Positions 16,896 to 26,013 of a stretch of 37,299 nucleotides of DNA are shown piece by piece. A program made the position numbers and the translations under genes. Numbering within the stretch: the stretch's first letter is position 1; each line of letters begins with the position of its first letter. Under the pieces are notes generated by a model, which ran no database searches, was not told where the DNA came from, and saw nothing but the letters and a program-made list of their open reading frames with translations. This DNA comes from an uncultured Verrucomicrobiota bacterium (GTDB lineage: Bacteria > Verrucomicrobiota > Verrucomicrobiia > Opitutales > Opitutaceae): NCBI GenBank assembly GCA_903960515.1, contig CAJCBL010000272.1:1-37299 (forward strand), given 5' to 3'.

Positions 16896-17726
16896 TCAGC
16901 TTGCGCCGCCCAGCGCCACGCACTCGTAGAGCATGCGGCCTCCGGGGAAGGGGCGGGCTGAGGTGACGAAAATCTGGCGACCACCGGCGGTGAAGGGCAC
17001 TGCGGCCGAGAGGCGCTCCGCGAGGTGGGGCTCTCGCTCGACGGCGGCCACCCACTCGGGATCGGCGGCCAGCACAAAGAGCCCGCCGGGATGGGCGGCG
17101 AGAATGGAAAGCACGGTGACCTTGGGGGCGCGACCGGCCGGAAGCACAAGCTCGGGGGGCGCCGCCGGGGCCGGGACCGGCGCCGCCGGGCTGGCGACCT
17201 GGGCCTGCTTGACCTCCAGCTTGATCATACGGGCCACCGACTCCGGGCCGGCCTCACCCAGACCGGCGCTTACCCAGTCGAGGAGCAAATTGCGGACGTC
17301 GTTGAGCTCGGTGGCGTGGGCGATGGGCTCGATGCCGCCGGTCTTGCGGATGGCTTTTACGAGACTGGAAACCTCCTTGAGATAGACGTTCTTCTGGGCT
17401 CCGGGGATGTAATACATCACCACGAGGTGGACGGCCTTGCCGTCCTGCGCTCCGTATTCGAGGCCCTGGGCGGACCAGCCGATGGCGCAGAACAGCTCGC
17501 CTTCCTCGCGGCCGGCGCGCACGTGGGGCACTCCCACGCCAAGGCCGATGCCGGTATTGCAGGCCTCCTCCCGCTTGTTGATCTCCTCGATGGTGTCGGT
17601 GCCCACCTCGATGTCGGGGTTGGCGTCGAGAATGCGGGCGAGGAAGCCCAGGGCTCGGGGCTTGCCTCCCACATCGGGCAATTCGAAGAGTCGGCCTTCC
17701 TGCAGGGCGTTGAGAATGCTGCGCAT
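16896..17726 (-). CDS. PTS EIIA (PtsN-type) domain protein with extra C-terminal domain
   Basis: Residues 1-150 form an EIIA domain of the fructose/nitrogen PTS class, with the phospho-acceptor in GVPHVR (His68). A Pro/Ala-rich linker (about 178-190) leads to a C-terminal segment of about 85 residues (KVTVLSILAAHPGGLFVLAADPEW ... MLYECVALGG) that I do not recognise. Ordinary EIIA proteins are about 150 residues, so this one (276) is a two-domain form. It starts 53 bases after the P-type ATPase and is probably co-transcribed. No sugar permease, HPr or enzyme I is nearby, so a regulatory role on the Mg2+ transporters is inferred. Confidence 0.87.
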   Translation of the reverse strand: MRSILNALQEGRLFELPDVGGKPRALGFLARILDANPDIEVGTDTIEEINKREEACNTGIGLGVGVPHVRAGREEGELFCAIGWSAQGLEYGAQDGKAVHLVVMYYIPGAQKNVYLKEVSSLVKAIRKTGGIEPIAHATELNDVRNLLLDWVSAGLGEAGPESVARMIKLEVKQAQVASPAAPVPAPAAPPELVLPAGRAPKVTVLSILAAHPGGLFVLAADPEWVAAVEREPHLAERLSAAVPFTAGGRQIFVTSARPFPGGRMLYECVALGGAS

Positions 17727-17779
17727 GGGAGTTGGGCCGCGGGTGGGGGCGGCTCAACAGGTTGCGCAGCGGCGCGGAA

Positions 17780-20359
17780 TCAATCGAGCCCGAAGCGGCG
17801 CGCGAACCACATTTTCACGTTGTGGGCGAGCACGCCATAGGTGGCGAGAAAGCCGAGCATCCAGAGGAAAAACACTGGCGGCAGCGGCTCGAAGCCCAGG
17901 ACACGGGCCAGCGGCGAGAACGGCAACCAGCAACCGATCGCCATGACGGTGACGGTGGCGAAGGCCAGGGTCTTGGAGGCGCGGCTTTGCACAAAGGGTA
18001 TTCGGAGGGTTCGGATGATGTGGACGATGAGCGTCTGGGTGAGCAACGACTCGACAAACCATCCGGTGTGGAAGAGGCGCTCGAGCACTCCGTTCTGCTC
18101 CGCCGAAGTGCCCGGGGCGCCGAAGGTGGCGCAGCCGAAGAAATACAGCATCAGGAAGAAGGTGGCGTAGTCGAAGATCGAGCTGATCGGCCCCACAAAG
18201 ATCATGAAATTGCGGATGCTTCGGATGTTCCAGCGCCGGGGCTTGGCGAGGTACTCCTCGTCGACGTTGTCGAGCGGGATGCCCAACTGGGAGAAGTCGT
18301 AGAGCAGGTTGTTCACCAGCACCTGGATGGGGGCCATGGGCAGGAACGGCAGGAAGGCGGCGCCACCGACGACGGAGAACATGTTCCCGAAGTTGGAACT
18401 GGCCCCCATGCGTATGTACTTGTTGATGTTCCCGAAGACCTTGCGGCCCTCCATGATGCCGTCCTCCAGCACGAGCAGGCTCTTCTCCAGCAGGATGATA
18501 TCGGCGGACTCCTTGGCGACATCGACCGCGGTATCCACAGAGATGCCGACATCGGCGGCCTTCATTGCCAACACATCGTTGATACCATCGCCCATGAAGC
18601 CGACCACATGCCCCTGGGCGCGGAGGGTTTTAATAACCTTCTCCTTCTGGTCAGGAGTGAGGCGGGCAAGGACGTTGGCCTCCTCGACTTCCTTGGCGAA
18701 GGCGGCTTCGTCCATCGAGGCGAGCTGGGGGCCGGTGACGATGCGGGTGATGGGCAGGCGCACGTCGAGACAGACCTTGCGCGTAACCAGTTCGTTGTCG
18801 CCGGTGAGGATCTTCACGGCGACGCCGGAGCGGGTGAGCGCATCGATGGCGGTGGCGGAGGTTTCCTTGGCCGGATCGAAGAAGGCGATGTAACCGAGCA
18901 GGGTGAGCTCGGATTCGTCGGAAACGGTGAATACCTGCTTGGTGCGGTCGAATTCGCGGTAGGCGATGGCGAGCACGCGGAAACCCTCGGCGGAGAGGGC
19001 GCGGTACTCGTCCATGAGGTCGTCGCGGATGAGGTTGATCAGCGGGTTGATGTCCTCGTCCACCTGGTAGTTTTCGCAGGCGGCGGCCACCTCTTCCACG
19101 GCGCCCTTGCAGATGAGCACGTGGCGGTCTTCGTAGTCGATGACCACCGACATGCGGCGGCGCTTAAAGTCGAAGGGGATCTCGTCCACCTTGCGGCAGT
19201 CGCGCTCCACATCGAGTTCGCTGTGGGCGAGGATGGCGCGGTCGAGCAGGTTGCGCAGGCCGGTCTGGTAGAAGCTGTTCATGTAGGCGTAGCGCAACAC
19301 GTCCTCGCTGGAGCGGTTGGTTACATCCACATAGCGCTCGAGCACCACATGGTCCTGGGTGAGCGTGCCGGTCTTGTCGGTACAGAGCACGTCCATCGCG
19401 CCGAAGTTCTGGATGGCGTGGAGGTGCTTCACGATGACCTTCTTGCGGGCCATCATCAGGGCGCCCTTGGAGAGGCACACGGTGATGATCATCGGCAGCA
19501 TCTCGGGGGTGAGGCCCACGGCCACCGAGAGGGCGAAGAGCAGGGCCTCGGCCCAGTTGTGGGTGCGCAGGCCCACGATGAGGAAGGTGGCCGAGACCAT
19601 GACCACCATGAAGCGGATCATCAGCCAGGTGAAACTCTTGATACCCTTGTCGAAGCTGGTGAGTTCGCGCTTGCCCCCGAGCTTGGCCGCGAGGGAGCCG
19701 AAGTAGGTCTTGCCGCCGGTGGCCAGCACGATGGCGCGGGCCGATCCGCTGAGGGCGTTGGTGCCCATCAGGCAGGCGTTGGTGAACTCGAAGGAGGTGC
19801 GGCCTGCGGGCTGGTTGGTGTCGGCATTCTTCTCCACCGGCATGGATTCACCTGTGAGAGCGGACTGGGTGACGAAGAAGTCCTTGGCCGATAGGATACG
19901 CAGGTCGGCCGGGATGAGGCTGCCGGCGGCAAGGATCACGACGTCGCCCGGCACGATATCCTCCAGAGGCACCTCGACCTCCTTGGCGTCACGAAGGACG
20001 GTGACGGTGGTCTTGACCAGCTTCTGGAGCTTCTCGACGGCGCGGGTGGAGCGGGCCTCCTGGATATAGGAGAGGAAGACGCTGAGGAAAACCATTCCTC
20101 CGACCACCACGGTGGAGCGGATGTCGCCCATGAAATAGGACACACCGGCGATAACCAGCAACTGGATGACGAGCGGGTTGCGGCAGCGGTGGAGCAGATC
20201 CATCACCATCGATTGCCCACCCCCGGCGGCGACCGTGTTGGGCCCGACCGAGTCGAGGAGCGCGGCGGCCTGCTCCGCGGTGAGTCCGTTGGGCGAGCTG
20301 CCGAGCTCCTGCAACAATTCAGTTTCCGGCAGGGTGTAGTGGCTGTTGTCGGCTGGCAC
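17780..20359 (-). CDS. mgtA: P-type Mg2+-importing ATPase, MgtA/MgtB type
   Basis: 859-residue P3B ATPase that moves Mg2+ into the cytoplasm, close to E. coli MgtA (898). The actuator motif TGES is at 169-172. The phosphorylated Asp328 is in CTDKTGTLT. The transmembrane motif VGLTPEMLPMI (281-291) and the hinge GDGINDVLAMKAADVGISVD are also present. C-terminal helices follow, with NNLLYDFSQLGIPLDNVD typical of MgtA. The N-terminus lacks the long basic tail of some homologues. The start is GTG, with no clear ribosome site. Lies between CorA and the second EIIA gene with short gaps. Confidence 0.95.
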   Translation of the reverse strand: MPADNSHYTLPETELLQELGSSPNGLTAEQAAALLDSVGPNTVAAGGGQSMVMDLLHRCRNPLVIQLLVIAGVSYFMGDIRSTVVVGGMVFLSVFLSYIQEARSTRAVEKLQKLVKTTVTVLRDAKEVEVPLEDIVPGDVVILAAGSLIPADLRILSAKDFFVTQSALTGESMPVEKNADTNQPAGRTSFEFTNACLMGTNALSGSARAIVLATGGKTYFGSLAAKLGGKRELTSFDKGIKSFTWLMIRFMVVMVSATFLIVGLRTHNWAEALLFALSVAVGLTPEMLPMIITVCLSKGALMMARKKVIVKHLHAIQNFGAMDVLCTDKTGTLTQDHVVLERYVDVTNRSSEDVLRYAYMNSFYQTGLRNLLDRAILAHSELDVERDCRKVDEIPFDFKRRRMSVVIDYEDRHVLICKGAVEEVAAACENYQVDEDINPLINLIRDDLMDEYRALSAEGFRVLAIAYREFDRTKQVFTVSDESELTLLGYIAFFDPAKETSATAIDALTRSGVAVKILTGDNELVTRKVCLDVRLPITRIVTGPQLASMDEAAFAKEVEEANVLARLTPDQKEKVIKTLRAQGHVVGFMGDGINDVLAMKAADVGISVDTAVDVAKESADIILLEKSLLVLEDGIMEGRKVFGNINKYIRMGASSNFGNMFSVVGGAAFLPFLPMAPIQVLVNNLLYDFSQLGIPLDNVDEEYLAKPRRWNIRSIRNFMIFVGPISSIFDYATFFLMLYFFGCATFGAPGTSAEQNGVLERLFHTGWFVESLLTQTLIVHIIRTLRIPFVQSRASKTLAFATVTVMAIGCWLPFSPLARVLGFEPLPPVFFLWMLGFLATYGVLAHNVKMWFARRFGLD

Positions 20360-20367
20360 GGGGAAAA

Positions 20368-20414
20368 AGGCTGGAGGCTACGCTGAAGGCTGAGGGCGGA
20401 AGGCTTAAGGCGGA
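20368..20414. repeat. Heptamer word repeat AGGCTGA
   Basis: The 47-base stretch is a degenerate seven-base array: AGGCTGG, AGGCTAC, GCTGA, AGGCTGA, GGGCGGA, AGGCTTA, AGGCGGA. It sits directly upstream of the mgtA-type start, in the 121-base gap after the first CorA gene. A shorter relative lies at about 34367-34387 (GCTGGAACCTGGAGGCTGAAA). Confidence 0.7.
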
Positions 20415-20480
20415 AAAGGGGAAACGGGGGAATACCCAATAGCTAGGGTTGCCGGCTAGGAGGGGGCTCGCGCGAAACCC

Positions 20481-21449
20481 TCAGAGCCACTTGCGGCGCT
20501 TGAGGTGGAAGAAGAGCACCATTGTGCTCACAACCATGATGCTCACAGCCACCCAATAGGCCGGACGGGAGGCGAGCAGGGGCGAGTGGCGAAAGTTCAT
20601 CGAGAACCAACTTCCAATGACCATCATCGGGATGGTCACCGCAGTGAGCCCGGTAAGCACCCGGATACCCTCGTTGGTCTCGTGGGCGGAGCGGTTGAGG
20701 AAGAGCTTGAAGATGAAGATGAGCTGCTCTGACCAAGCCTTCACCTGCTCCTCCATGCGCACCAGATCGTCGGAAAGATCGCGAAGGTAGGGCAGGAGTT
20801 TGGGCCGGAAGAATGCGTTGCGTCCTGCGGCGAGGGCTACGGTGAGCTCGCGTTGCGGGCGCAGGATCTGGCGCAGGGTGGTGATGTCCTCGCGTACGTC
20901 TACGATGCGCTGGGCCAGCGGCTCCTTGCTGCGGGCGAGCACGGCGTCCTCGATGGTTTCGATCTCGAGGCGCAGCGACTCAAGGGCCGGCTCATAGTGT
21001 TCGACGATGAGATCGAGCAGGGTGTGGGCAACGCGGTCGGGCCCGCGCAATGCTGCGGAGGGAGAGCGCAGGAGCCGCTCGCGGCAGGTCTCCACTGCCT
21101 TGAGTGGGCGGCGGTGGAAGGTGAGCAGGAAGTTCTTGCCGAGAATGAGGTCGAGCTCGGTGGTGGTGAACTTCTCGGTGCGCGAGTAGTCCACGGCGTG
21201 GGCCACGATGTAGACGTAGTTCTCATACTCCTCGTGCTTGGGCAGCGGCGAATCCTGGAGACAGTCCTCGATGGTCACCGGGTGCACGGCGAAGAGCTCC
21301 TGCATGATCTGCCGTACCTCCTCCACAGTGGGCTCGGTGAGATCGACCCAGAGCATCACCGCCGGATCCAGCCGAAGCGCTGCGAGCGACTCGGGGGGCG
21401 GGCAGCCGGCTACGAGCTTGGAGTCGCGATAGACGACGCTGTGAATCAT
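20481..21449 (-). CDS. CorA-family transporter with SMN in place of GMN
   Basis: 322 residues from the ATG at 21449. The cytoplasmic N-domain ends in a long helix that leads into TM1 (about 262-282). The usual CorA signature YGMNF at the pore mouth is changed to FSMNF, with SMN at 283-285 (Ser codon TCG). TM2 and the basic end HLKRRKWL follow. The GMN motif is near-invariant in CorA, and ZntB-type exporters use GIN. The pore may therefore prefer another ion, or the subunit may be regulatory and assemble with the neighbouring GMN paralogue, which has the same length and collinear motifs. The longer in-frame extension to 21569 reads as spacer repeat and is excluded. Confidence 0.9.
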   Translation of the reverse strand: MIHSVVYRDSKLVAGCPPPESLAALRLDPAVMLWVDLTEPTVEEVRQIMQELFAVHPVTIEDCLQDSPLPKHEEYENYVYIVAHAVDYSRTEKFTTTELDLILGKNFLLTFHRRPLKAVETCRERLLRSPSAALRGPDRVAHTLLDLIVEHYEPALESLRLEIETIEDAVLARSKEPLAQRIVDVREDITTLRQILRPQRELTVALAAGRNAFFRPKLLPYLRDLSDDLVRMEEQVKAWSEQLIFIFKLFLNRSAHETNEGIRVLTGLTAVTIPMMVIGSWFSMNFRHSPLLASRPAYWVAVSIMVVSTMVLFFHLKRRKWL

Positions 21450-21572
21450 GGAAATTGCGGAGTCCGGAATGCGGACTGAGGAGTGGCCTGCCGGATCGCC
21501 GGTATGGCCGGGCCGTTTGGTGCTGTGGTGTCGGTATTCATTCCGCAGTCCGAGATCCCAAATCCGCAATTC
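21450..21572. other. Spacer with imperfect inverted word repeats between the CorA genes
   Basis: GAAATTGCGGAGTCCGG (from 21450) and ATGCGGACTG face an inverted partner, CATTCCGCAGTCCGAG ... AATCCGCAATTCTC, at about 21540-21577. This is the ATTCCGCA word repeat common in such genomes. It may form a weak hairpin between the two corA messages. No gene. Confidence 0.55.
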
Positions 21573-22541
21573 TCAGATCCATCCCCGGCGGCGGCACCAC
21601 AGGAACATGCCCAAGGTGGAGATGAGCATCACGCCCAGTGAGACCCAGTAGCCGTAGGGGCTGGCGACCTCGGGCATGTGCTCGAAGTTCATGCCGTACC
21701 AGGTGCCGAAGAGTATCGGCGGCATGGTGATGGCGGTGAGTGCGGTGAGCACTTTGATGCCTTCGTTGGCCTGGCTGGCGGATTTGTTGAGGAAGAGGTC
21801 GAAGGATACCAGCAGGGCGTCGCCCAGGGTGGTGAGCGCCTCCTCCTGCCGGATGAGGCTGTCGCGCAGGTCGCGGAAATACGGCAGCATGAGAGCGCGG
21901 ATGATCTTGGTGTCGCCGTGGGCGAGGCGGCTGATCACATCGCGCTGGGGCCTCACGATCTGGCGCAGGGCGGCCAACTCGGAACGGATGGCGAGCAGGT
22001 CGGCTGTAAGGTTCTCGGCATGCTCCTTGAGCACTCGCGCCTCGATGCGCTCGATCTTGCTGCGGAGTTCGTCGAGCACCGGTGTGTAGCGCTCGATGAG
22101 CTGGTCGAGCACCTGGTGGGCGAGCCGGTCGGGCCCGCGGGCGATCACGCCGGTGGCCTTCGTGCAGCGCTCGACAAGCCACTCGATGGACTTCAGGGGC
22201 TTGCGGTGGAAAGTGACCAAAAACTCCTTACCAAGGAAGAGATCGAGCTCGGTGGTCGTGAGCCGCTCGGTTCTCGAGAGATCGACGGCGTGGGTGACGA
22301 TGAAGAGATGGTCGTCGTAGTCCTCGACCTTGGGGAGGCTGGAGGGAGCGATGCAGTCCTCGATGGCAAGCGGGTGAAACTGGAAAACACTTTCGAGTAC
22401 GAGCTTGATCTCCTCGTCGGTGGGGTTGTCGAGATCCACCCAGAGCTGGAGCCCTTTGTCGGCGCGGACAAGCTTCATGGCCTCGGCTTCGAGGTCACTG
22501 GCAACGAGCTTACCTTCGCTGAATACGAACGAGCGAATCAT
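21573..22541 (-). CDS. corA: CorA magnesium/cobalt channel (canonical GMN)
   Basis: 322 residues from the ATG at 22541. It forms a pentameric Mg2+ channel in the inner membrane. The cytoplasmic funnel domain occupies about 1-255. The long pore helix precedes TM1 (about 262-282), the selectivity motif YGMNF has GMN at 283-285, and TM2 is followed by a basic tail (WCRRRGWI). It is a tandem paralogue of the downstream gene, collinear over its whole length, so the pair arose by duplication. A hairpin with a T-run lies about 53 bases upstream of its start. The 39 bases before this ATG in the same frame are not conserved and are excluded. Confidence 0.95.
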   Translation of the reverse strand: MIRSFVFSEGKLVASDLEAEAMKLVRADKGLQLWVDLDNPTDEEIKLVLESVFQFHPLAIEDCIAPSSLPKVEDYDDHLFIVTHAVDLSRTERLTTTELDLFLGKEFLVTFHRKPLKSIEWLVERCTKATGVIARGPDRLAHQVLDQLIERYTPVLDELRSKIERIEARVLKEHAENLTADLLAIRSELAALRQIVRPQRDVISRLAHGDTKIIRALMLPYFRDLRDSLIRQEEALTTLGDALLVSFDLFLNKSASQANEGIKVLTALTAITMPPILFGTWYGMNFEHMPEVASPYGYWVSLGVMLISTLGMFLWCRRRGWI

Positions 22542-22776
22542 GCGGGGACGCCATCGTGGGTGGCGGTGGGCGCGAAGCAAGCCACGGGCAGGGAAAAGGA
22601 GGCGGCCTGGGGCGCTCCCTACCCCGCCTCCGGTGGATAAGGAAAAAGCGGAGCTGCCGGGGCGGACCTTGGCCTACAAGAAACGCCGGGCGGCAGGGCC
22701 CGCTCCGGGCAGGCGCCGTGTATTACCGGCACTCCGGGAATCCCGGTTAACCGGCGCTCAGTTCGGCACGTGCGCC
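22542..22776. other. Leader between the EIIA and corA genes
   Basis: 235 bases without a gene. Next to the EIIA stop is the palindrome CCGGTTAACCGG, followed by GC-rich stems (GCCGGGCGGCAGGGCCCGC region) and the hairpin at 22594-22631. The length and structure are unusual for an operon spacer and suggest a regulated leader. Confidence 0.4.
22594..22631 (-). terminator. Terminator- or attenuator-like hairpin before corA
   Basis: On the minus strand GGAGGCGG and CCGCCTCC (22631-22624 and 22605-22598) form an 8-bp perfect stem followed by TTTT. It lies after the first EIIA gene and about 53 bases upstream of the GMN corA ATG. It could end the EIIA message, or act as a leader attenuator for the Mg2+ genes. 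No M-box pattern was recognised around it. Confidence 0.5.
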
Positions 22777-23253
22777 TCAGGCTTTCACCAGCAGGCGGGC
22801 CTCGGCTTCGAGCAGCGGGCGCATGAATTCCTCAGCGGTCTGCGCAGCCATCAGGGCCTCGCGCACGGCGGGATTTTTGAGCACCCGGCAGAGGGCTCCG
22901 ACGAGGGTTAGGTAGTCGCCGGGCTGCGACTTGGGCGTGGCGACCACAAAGATGAGGCGCACCGTCTGCTGGCAGTTCTCAAAGTAGACTCCGGCCGGGC
23001 TGCGGCCCACGGCGAGAACGATGTCCCGGGCGTGTTCAGTGCGGGCGTGAGGCAGGGCAATCTCGTTGCCGATACAGGTGGGGTCGAGGCGCTCGCGGGC
23101 CAGCAGCTCGTTGTAGAAACGCGGGTAGTCCGTGATGTCGGGATGGCCTTCGAGCAGCCGGGCCACCTCGTTGATGGCCGCAGTGCGCTTGGTCTGTTGC
23201 ACCTGCAGGAGGATGCGGGAGGGATGCAGGAGTTGGGCGAGGCGGACGGGCAT
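22777..23253 (-). CDS. PTS EIIA (PtsN-type) domain protein
   Basis: 158 residues from the ATG at 23253, the normal length of a stand-alone EIIA of the nitrogen/fructose class. The phospho-acceptor His69 lies in NEIALPHAR. The flanking VQQTKRTAAINEVARLL and the C-terminal LVGALCRVLKNPAVREALMAAQ fit the fold. The frame is open to 23349, but that part lacks family similarity. It is the first gene of a minus-strand series leading to corA, corA, mgtA and another EIIA gene. In E. coli EIIANtr controls K+ uptake by binding TrkA and KdpD. By analogy this protein may control Mg2+ transporters. Confidence 0.9.
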   Translation of the reverse strand: MPVRLAQLLHPSRILLQVQQTKRTAAINEVARLLEGHPDITDYPRFYNELLARERLDPTCIGNEIALPHARTEHARDIVLAVGRSPAGVYFENCQQTVRLIFVVATPKSQPGDYLTLVGALCRVLKNPAVREALMAAQTAEEFMRPLLEAEARLLVKA

Positions 23254-23616: not shown

Positions 23617-26013
23617 TCAGTTCACCGTCTGGCCGCGGATCTGTTGGAGCGCCCGGAAACCGCGAGCAAGCACCTCCACGAGTTCGGCGGCGCGGAAGGG
23701 CTTGAGCAGGCAGTCGTTCATGCCGGCGGCCAGCAGGGTGGCATGGGCGGTGGGGCCGGCCATCGCAGTGAAGGCGACAATCCACGGGACTGCGGTATGG
23801 CCCGACTCGCGACGAATGCGGCGGGTGGCCTCATGGCCGTCGATACCGGGCATGCTGATATCCATGAAAACGAGATCGAAACTCTCGTTGCGGGCCAGCT
23901 CGAAGGCCGCCTGGCCGGTGCCCGCCGTAGTCGCGGCGTAACCGAGACGCTCCAGCATGAGGCAGATCGCGCGGCGGTTGGCGGCGTCGTCATCCACCAG
24001 AAGGATACGCAAAGGCATGCGCCGGGCCATCGAGCCGTCGAACTCGGTCGCCCCGCCCGCGGGTGGGCCGGCGAAGGTTTCCTCAGGGGCGCCGAAGGCT
24101 TGGAGCAGCAGCGCCTTGAGGTAGCTGGGCTTCACCGGCTTGGCGAGCAGGGTGGTGTAGCCGGTGGGTACGTGGCTGCCGTTGGTGTCGAGCAGCAGCA
24201 ACGGCAGGCTTTCCCGACCCGCGATGGAATGGATGATCTCGGCCACTTCGGCACCGTCGCGCGCGCCCAAGTGGCGGTCGAGGATGACCACTTCACAACC
24301 AGCCGGGCTGCGAAGCAGGGCCAAGGCGGCGGCGGAGCGCTCGACCTCGCAGGTGACCATGCCCCACCAGCGGCACATGGTGGAGAGGGTGTGCCGCAGC
24401 GTGGTATTCTCGCTGAGGATGATCGCGCGGCGGCCAGCCAGCGCAGCCTCCTGCCCGGCGTCGGGCGGGGGCGGGGCGTCCGGGGGGACTTCGGCGGGCA
24501 GGGTGAAGTGGAAGGTGGTGCCGCGGTCCACCTCGCTCTCCACCCACATGCGGCCGCGCAACAACTCGGTGATGCGGTGGGCGATGGCGAGGCCCAGGCC
24601 CGTGCCGCCGTAGTGGCGGGTTGTAGCCGAATCGACCTGGGAGAAGGGCTTGAAGAGCCGGTCCATGCGATCGGGCGGGATGCCGATGCCGGTATCGCGC
24701 ACGCTGAAATGCAGCTCAAGCGGCTGGCTGGGGAGGCGCTGTACGGATACGAAGACCTCGCCCGAGGAGGTGAACTTGAGCGCGTTGCCCACGAGGTTGA
24801 AGAGGATCTGCTGCAACCGGGTGGAGTCGCCCAGTATCAAGCTGGGCACGTCGTGGTCCACCAGGAAGCCGAGCTCCAGGTGCTTTTCCATCGCCTTCGG
24901 GGCGCTGAGATCGAGGACGGTCTCCACCACGGTGCGCAGATCCACGGGGGCGCGCTCGAGCTCAATGCGCCCGGCCTCGATCTTGGAGTAGTCGAGGACG
25001 TCGTTGATGATCTCCAGCAGGGTGTTGCCGCAGTGCCCGATGGTGCGGCTGTATTCGCGCTGCTCGGGGGTGAGATCGGTGCTGGAGAGCAGTTGGGCCA
25101 TGCCCAACACGCCGTTCATAGGCGTGCGGATCTCGTGGCTCATCACCGCCAGGAATGCGCTCTTGGCGTGATTGGCCGCCTCGGCGGCGCGGGCCTCCTC
25201 CTCGGCGTCGCGGATGGCGCGCTGGAGACGCAGGTTGAGCTGGTCGGCATTGGCCTTCTCGGTACGCAGGCGGGCGTTGGCCTCCATCTCGCGTTCCTCG
25301 GCCAGGGCGGCACTGAGGCGCATGCGGTAGGTTACCCAGCCGATGAGCATCGAGAGGGCGAGGATGCCCGAGAGGGCGGCACCGGCGACCTGGCGGAAGG
25401 TGTTGAGTCGCTGCTCCAGGTCGTGTGCCCACATGTCAACTCCGGCCACGCCTACGAACTCGCCGCGGGAGTTATGAAAGGGAGCGAAGGCGCTCATATA
25501 CGTGCGCACCTGCTCGGGGATGGGGCGCTCGTCGGCCAGGGCCAAGTGCTCGACAAGAGCGCGCCGCAGCATGGTGTCCTGCCCGGTGTAGACGAGGCCT
25601 AGCGGCGGCGGTGGCCCGGTGTCGTCGGGCGGGCGCACGAAGTAGGCGGTATCCAGGATGAAGGTCACCTGGCCGTCGTGCAGCGTGGCGGTGTATATGT
25701 AGATGAGATCCTGGGTGGCGCGCTGCATCTTGACCAGCGGCTCCAGTGCGCGCAGATGCTCGGGCGAACCGGTCTGTGCGGCGGAGGTAAGCGTTTCGTG
25801 GAGATCGCCGTCGATCTGCACTGCGGCGGCCTTGGCCAGTTGTACGAGTTCGGTGCGCACCGACTCGATCTGGGCGCGGCGGGCATAGGTGTAGGTGTAG
25901 GCGAGCACCCCGCAGGCGACGACCATCACGGTGAGGGCCAAAAGGAAACCCTCACGGACCGGGTGGATCTGGCGTTGGGGATTCGTGGGTACTTGGGTGT
26001 CGGGGCCCGCCAT
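23617..26013 (-). CDS. Hybrid sensor histidine kinase with two receiver domains
   Basis: 798 residues from the ATG at 26013. Two TM helices (about 22-42 and 208-230) enclose a periplasmic sensor domain of about 165 residues resembling a Cache fold. A coiled coil follows at about 235-282. The HisKA box has His293 in [11 protein letters not shown], and the HATPase carries the N-box (LVGNALKFT) and G-boxes ([15 protein letters not shown]). Receiver 1 keeps its Asp (VVILDRHLG) and Lys (LAKPVK) but has SEN where the acidic pair should be, so it is probably degenerate. Receiver 2 ([25 protein letters not shown]) looks active. The target is unknown. It is divergent from the tandem HDOD genes. Confidence 0.92.

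Follow-up and report, generated by a model that had tools for sequence, protein, structure and literature searches.

Mg2+-importing P-type ATPases of a single clade are encoded directly before a PTS EIIA protein, in a two-gene cassette – mgtA-EIIA2 – that is present in several bacterial phyla, and genome comparison supports the view that the juxtaposition of an EIIA and a Mg2+ transporter in the contig where we encountered it is more than accident. The pairing is a direct observation, and from it we infer, with confidence a little better than even, that EIIA2 is MgtA's own phosphorylation-dependent regulator. A role as dedicated pump regulator is the best explanation of EIIA2 given its pairing with one Mg2+-pump clade, its retained phospho-histidine, a source of phosphate in the genome, and the absence of a matching sugar permease. 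In a few Proteobacteria the PTS is known to control K+ transport, and an EIIA dedicated to a Mg2+ pump would be new within that setting.

The window analyzed here, a stretch of 37,299 nucleotides, spans the entire contig G000:C272, which belongs to a 5.5-Mb draft genome with 96.8% completeness. The initial annotation described a minus-strand series of an EIIA, two corA genes, an mgtA-type ATPase and an EIIA with an extra domain, and gene calls and Pfam and NCBIfam matches agree with it. In order of transcription the genes are EIIA1, corA1, corA2, mgtA and EIIA2, separated by spacers of 235, 123, 121 and 53 nt:

22777-23253, minus strand: EIIA1, a stand-alone PTS EIIA of the fructose/mannitol/Ntr fold, 158 aa (PF00359)
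21573-22541, minus strand: corA1, a CorA-type Mg2+ channel, 322 aa, with the GMN motif (TIGR00383)
20481-21449, minus strand: corA2, a second CorA-family protein, 322 aa, with SMN replacing GMN (PF01544)
17780-20359, minus strand: mgtA, a Mg2+-importing P3B-type ATPase of the EIIA-linked clade, 859 aa (TIGR01524)
16896-17726, minus strand: EIIA2, an EIIA domain (residues 1-159), a linker and a C-terminal domain, 276 aa (PF00359)
16902-17120, minus strand: the EIIA2 C-terminal domain, approximately residues 203-275, of fold beta2-alpha2-beta3 and without a Pfam family

Both EIIAs are members of PTS_EIIA_2 (PF00359), scoring 92.9 bits (EIIA1) and 58.4 bits (EIIA2) against a cut-off of 27. MgtA far exceeds the cut-off of the Mg2+ P-type ATPase equivalog TIGR01524 (1084.9 bits versus 610.75), and the best matches among solved structures are MgtA entries, for example 8uy7. 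CorA1 matches Pfam CorA (PF01544) at 223.4 bits, exceeds the TIGR00383 cut-off (228.1 bits versus 200.75) and has GMN, the signature motif of CorA. CorA2 is well over the Pfam cut-off (201.7 bits), falls just below that of TIGR00383 (193.1 bits), and has SMN, which is otherwise seen in the sister species G002; GMN is kept in 13 of the 15 corA2 genes examined. Of the three Mg2+ transporters originally proposed, corA1 and mgtA are therefore firmly identified from their sequences, and corA2 is less certain.

The five genes are followed downstream by a GH97 glycosidase gene and preceded by a hybrid histidine kinase gene (23617-26013) lying upstream of EIIA1. A hybrid histidine kinase gene is also upstream of EIIA1 at both of the loci from the same genus (L043 and L044), and does not adjoin it in the other relatives shown. 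A Pfam scan of the 24 called genes of the window revealed no sugar EII, HPr or EI, as first reported. An Rfam scan of the window gave no matches at gathering scores, a Mg2+ riboswitch included, and a promoter scan with a consensus not fitted to Verrucomicrobiota gave no sites. The spacer separating EIIA1 from corA1 contains a weak terminator-like hairpin.

The block is not a single conserved five-gene operon; this possibility was ruled out by finding its gene order at no other locus examined, including 39 other EIIA1 loci, 18 other EIIA2 loci of relatives, and 77 loci from the EIIA2 search described below. Comparison of these loci indicates that it consists of two independently conserved modules, EIIA1-corA and mgtA-EIIA2, that meet in the window. 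The neighborhood as initially drawn thus fares differently in its parts: the mgtA-EIIA2 pair and, family-wide, EIIA1-corA are conserved, and the five-gene block is not. At none of the 39 other EIIA1 loci does mgtA-EIIA2 adjoin EIIA1. The sister species G002 has EIIA1-corA-corA without mgtA, and neither G002 nor a second sister species, G001, contains an MgtA match, so mgtA-EIIA2 is an addition in the lineage of the window. At one further locus (L179) an EIIA1 relative (61% identity) lies directly before mgtA-EIIA2, with a beta-galactosidase fragment upstream where gyrA would be and with no corA or gyrA found within 12.8 kb; this is an independent meeting of EIIA1 and the mgtA-EIIA2 module.

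Relatives of EIIA2 are present in 19 of 189 related genomes, and in all 18 besides the window EIIA2 immediately follows mgtA in the same orientation. The cassette is also found in the cultured Opitutaceae EW11 (L180). When 84,980 species genomes were scanned with the EIIA2 alignment, the EIIA2 motifs serving as bait, 77 loci were obtained, with mgtA directly upstream in 70 (in most of them by a gap of less than 40 nt), a contig edge in three, and no adjacent mgtA in four (L221, in which a GH43-like gene intervenes, and L232, L240 and L242). The loci overlap between collections, such that 97 EIIA2 rows correspond to 81 distinct sequences. Depending on naming, the pair spans five to seven phyla – seven NCBI phylum names occur in the MgtA tree set, and the record names include Verrucomicrobia, Lentisphaerae, Kiritimatiellaeota, Elusimicrobia, Spirochaetes, Deltaproteobacteria/Myxococcales and Chlorobiaceae – with nearly all loci coming from metagenome bins, for which phylum labels can be wrong.

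A reverse search used MgtA as bait (TIGR01524, E <= 1e-150) in the 189 relatives and 387 genomes of the phylum, and gave 59 loci after merging. In this EIIA-independent test, which covers one phylum, an EIIA gene is directly downstream on the same strand for 32 of the 33 MgtAs that are at least 59% identical to that of the window, and directly downstream for none of the 26 that are at most 55% identical, the latter including one with only 256 bases of downstream sequence (L161) and two that are partial (L163 and L280). The EIIA profile used for the downstream scan recovered four of five other EIIA_2 controls. The one close MgtA without an EIIA (L275, in G430) is followed by a methionyl-tRNA synthetase gene. 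On a tree of 56 MgtA rows the EIIA-link label changes just twice, as few changes being seen in none of 500 shuffles, and the two are readable as one gain and one loss, the loss being at L275. Fisher's test of the mgtA-EIIA2 link gives p = 7e-16, a value that ignores relatedness. The split of 32/33 versus 0/26 rules out a chance neighborhood for mgtA and EIIA2.

In a larger tree of 82 MgtAs the 67 that are EIIA-linked form one group with an SH-aLRT of 100. Six proteobacterial plasmid MgtAs, the E. coli type included, were labeled as unlinked in this tree, and a scan agreed, with no EIIA found within 3 kb of any of them. Elusimicrobial and myxococcal copies are intermixed in the MgtA tree and one chlorobial copy clusters with those of Verrucomicrobia, which looks like joint transfer of the two genes. 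The tightness of the pairing may reflect such transfer, which is a point against reading EIIA2 as a regulator. A hint from the window that the EIIA-linked clade is short of the N-terminal tail of known MgtAs was dropped, since the linked L227 has a long N-terminus.

The phospho-histidines to which the initial annotation drew attention, His69 of EIIA1 and His68 of EIIA2, are both retained and are invariant among relatives (41 of 41 EIIA1s and 81 of 81 distinct EIIA2s). The neighboring arginine is kept in 41 of 41 EIIA1s (Arg53) and in 80 of 81 distinct EIIA2s (Arg52). The position of the second active-site histidine – H120 in E. coli PtsN – is occupied by tyrosine in 41 of 41 EIIA1s (Tyr114), and in EIIA2 (Tyr115) by tyrosine in 77 of the 79 distinct sequences with a residue there and by phenylalanine in the other two; the histidine is present in the five PDB EIIAs compared, at the place seen in PtsN and mannitol EIIA. 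The substitution could alter phosphotransfer. Neither protein reaches the cut-off of the PtsN equivalog TIGR01419 (138.7 bits), EIIA1 scoring 69.4 and EIIA2 26.0 bits.

The AlphaFold model of EIIA2 (mean pLDDT 86.7) has a confident EIIA domain, a low-confidence linker (residues 160-187), and a confident final domain of about 75 residues, bearing out the extra domain noted in the first reading of the window. The model has the EIIA fold (Z 17.2 and rmsd 2.5 over 145 aligned residues against 2a0j), and it is similarly close to PtsN (1a6j, Foldseek E 1.6e-7 and Z 17.1; Z 16-17 for PtsN structures overall). The EIIA part also shows a weaker resemblance to the cytosolic domains found in SLC4 anion exchangers (Z 8.2-11.2). 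The C-terminal domain, predicted alone with a pLDDT of 92.5, is found in EIIA2s across phyla and is missing in G066. An alignment of EIIA2 (A3) comprises the window copy and 58 of 71 full-length EIIA2s, excluding near-copies as well as L237, whose start codon is CTG; a further alignment, A4, is A3 minus L186. No Pfam family matched the domain in more than one of 58 members, the window copy matched none, and searches of PDB and viral folds gave nothing at E <= 0.001. PAS-like and roadblock-like matches reach a Z of at most 5.8, which is noise level.

These features bear on an alternative in which EIIA2 acts on MgtA without phosphate, as a structural subunit or stabilizer kept for its fold, with any charge on His68 incidental. 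Its pairing with mgtA is as tight as that of a subunit, tyrosine has almost always taken the place of the second active-site histidine, and the EIIA fold does recur as a transporter domain in the SLC4 exchangers. However, a solely structural role would not need an invariant His68 together with a near-invariant arginine, and we regard this alternative as unlikely.

A regulator that depends on phosphorylation requires that the genome can supply phosphate, and the components are present. There is one EI gene alone (C105) and one EI within an EIIA_1-HPr-EI fusion (C307), a third PEP-utilizer match (C270) being a PPDK-type enzyme; there are two separate HPr genes in addition to the fusion; and there is one HPr kinase gene (C23). 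A TOTE conflict-system primase-helicase protein (L086:10343-12691, G000:C23) adjoins one of the HPr genes. The only EIIC in the genome is part of a glucose-type EIICB beside the EIIA_1-HPr-EI fusion, and no PTS_IIB (Lac/Fru-type EIIB) is present in the genome. We therefore rejected EIIA1 and EIIA2 as parts of a nearby sugar PTS: the window has no such gene, the genome has no PTS_IIB, and the sole EIIC has its own EIIA_1.

In all, six PTS_EIIA_2 domains are encoded in this genome, EIIA1, EIIA2 and four others, on C374, C207, C225 and C264, and in a genome so equipped – EI, HPr and HPr kinase present, a single EIIC of glucose type, Lac/Fru-type EIIB lacking – they look regulatory. The C374 EIIA (L084:1743-3964) overlaps a gene for a ClC channel with a CBS domain, and a homologous ClC gene is present at nine of nine paralogue loci (L091-L099). 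The C207 EIIA (L082:8077-9444) shares a 455-aa protein with a DacZ_P sensor and a diadenylate cyclase (DAC) domain; if this EIIA-DAC fusion is real, it would place c-di-AMP synthesis under PTS control. EIIA-matching frames of comparable length (about 445-477 aa) occur in most of the genomes of the order that were searched, including L101:10001-11356 (G021), with domains having been scanned in G000. The C225 EIIA has an HTH_17 match slightly below the cut-off. The C264 EIIA is weak (29.1 bits) and precedes an Mrp-like cluster with Proton_antipo_M and NADHdh genes. At L100:10004-12283 (G017:C87) an EIIA is directly before a SulP-type permease with a STAS domain, followed by an Mrp-like cluster related to that of G000:C264.

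The EIIA1-corA module is conserved within one family, the only one in which we see it. A strong EIIA1 relative (49-91% identity) is present in 40 of the 49 genomes searched from the same genus and family, and the other 27 genomes of the order have none. At 40 EIIA1 loci (the window included) scored with a codon-based gene caller, corA immediately follows EIIA1 in the same orientation at 23 and is within 4 kb at five; it is absent at nine – one of which, L063, has only 1.1 kb of downstream sequence – with a contig edge at two and the EIIA1 gene uncalled at one (L078). The last has EIIA1 without corA by tblastn, bringing the loci without corA to ten. The linkage may be partly old synteny, and the case for EIIA1 and corA is weaker than that for EIIA2 and mgtA because gyrA, lying upstream of EIIA1 at 23 of the 40 loci, is kept about as often as corA is downstream.

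That gyrA is so frequent a neighbor, that ten EIIA1 loci do without corA, and that EIIA_2 domains are near-universal in the phylum (PTS_EIIA_2 in at least 113 of 115 genomes) would fit another explanation, in which the EIIAs serve other targets within a general PTS-Ntr-like network – K+, osmolarity or c-di-AMP – and the Mg2+ neighbors are operon history. But EIIA2 is tied to one MgtA clade over several phyla while the flanks change, and of 16 EIIA1 loci with no gyrA inside 3 kb, ten nevertheless have corA immediately after EIIA1; this explanation too seems improbable to us.

Under the preferred reading, that EIIA2 is a phosphorylation-dependent regulator of MgtA, EIIA2 would be a dedicated cytosolic partner of the pump encoded by the gene just before it. 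Phosphate from PEP would reach His68 by way of EI and HPr. A shortage of PEP, or a draw on phosphate by other PTS acceptors, would leave EIIA2 unphosphorylated; in that state it would bind a cytosolic domain of MgtA, and the activity of MgtA would fall; phosphorylation of EIIA2 would free MgtA, so that ATP-driven Mg2+ uptake would proceed only in the energized cell. That the unphosphorylated form is the inhibitor is a guess at the sign, taken by analogy from the PtsN-YcgO and EIIA-Glc precedents. The C-terminal domain could be a docking aid or receive a second signal, and EIIA1 might act likewise on CorA, which is less certain. The model thus predicts phosphorylation of the EIIAs, binding to their targets, an effect of this sign on activity, and a Mg2+ phenotype. 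Information flow in reverse, with an EIIA reading the state of the transporter and so relaying Mg2+ status to the PTS or to carbon control, is very improbable: the unassigned second module of EIIA2 could report transporter state, but in the E. coli precedents described in PMC11808508 and PMC10710835 it is the transporter that is acted upon by the EIIA.

Elsewhere in the phylum EIIA domains are joined to other ion transporters. Twelve long-frame EIIA loci were picked for length and ten were scanned, revealing six Na+/H+ exchanger fusions, one fusion to a P-type ATPase (G224), one EIIA-HPr-EI protein, one with a zinc ribbon, and one with no other family. The exchangers have the EIIA at the C-terminus (L282, L284, L286, L287, L288 and L289), and L288 has two EIIA stretches. 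In the G224 fusion (L281:3485-6739, G224:C65) an EIIA is N-terminal to a P-type cation ATPase in one frame of 1084 aa; the ATPase most resembles the Ca2+ and Na+/K+ types, not MgtA, falls below every specific cut-off, and is the sole EIIA-P-type ATPase fusion among the matches listed from 387 genomes. This shows that EIIA and ATPase domains can work in one chain, and is not evidence of contact between EIIA2 and MgtA.

The suggestion made at the outset of an EIIA switch dedicated to Mg2+ does not extend to this wider set, in which other EIIA_2 domains adjoin ClC or Mrp-like genes or are fused to a c-di-AMP cyclase or Na+/H+ exchangers. As a tentative synthesis, to which we give somewhat less than even credence, mgtA-EIIA2 would be a mobile and ancient two-component transporter in which PEP-charged PTS phosphate gates ATP-driven Mg2+ import, and a member of a wider verrucomicrobial 'ion PTS' – with dedicated EIIAs beside CorA, MgtA, ClC and Mrp-like genes, and others joined in one chain with Na+/H+ exchangers, with a P-type ATPase or with a c-di-AMP cyclase – that ties ion balance to energy state. 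The gene arrangement suggests that the energy state of the cell may control Mg2+ uptake. If this is true, PTS control reaches the cell's main divalent cation and the P-type ATPases, and a function is provided for many EIIA proteins encoded in genomes nearly devoid of sugar PTS. The mgtA-EIIA2 cassette is a concrete pair for asking how carbon and energy state set Mg2+ uptake.

In a search of the literature, mostly open-access and represented in part by titles and abstracts, we found no description of an EIIA paired with MgtA, CorA or MgtE. A placement of mgtE beside ptsI in Xanthomonas found no support in the literature search and was set aside.

The nearest known system is PtsN (EIIA-Ntr) of E. 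coli, whose targets include TrkA and KdpD. The window EIIAs share with PtsN the EIIA fold, the phospho-histidine and arginine, the lack of a sugar EIIB or EIIC partner, and ion transport as the likely target. They differ in being encoded beside their presumed targets, in the ion (Mg2+), and in the targets being a P-type ATPase and a channel; they also have tyrosine for the second histidine, an extra domain in EIIA2, and scores far below the PtsN equivalog cut-off. Unphosphorylated PtsN is reported to bind the K+/H+ antiporter YcgO and inhibit it (PMC11808508). EIIA-Glc, in inducer exclusion of LacY and MalK, and the EIIA-like domain of LacS control non-PTS transporters by phosphorylation, according to PMC10710835. 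The likeness to EIIA2 lies in this control of transporters outside the PTS; the differences are that these domains are of another EIIA family (PTS_EIIA_1) and act on sugar transporters, and that EIIA-Glc is shared and not dedicated. The same source describes MgtR, MgtS and MgtU as small proteins that tune MgtA or MgtB post-translationally (PMC10710835), and these resemble EIIA2 in being small dedicated partners encoded with or near a Mg2+ ATPase. Unlike EIIA2, a soluble EIIA with a phospho-acceptor histidine, they are – as characterized there – peptides only some 30 aa long, and it is stability that they affect. The cytosolic domain of the SLC4 exchangers (Band 3, AE2 and BTR1) has the same fold as an ion-transporter regulatory domain, but is eukaryotic and covalently joined to its transporter. 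We know of no PTS phosphorylation of the SLC4 domain, in contrast to the phosphorylation at His68 by which EIIA2 would control MgtA.
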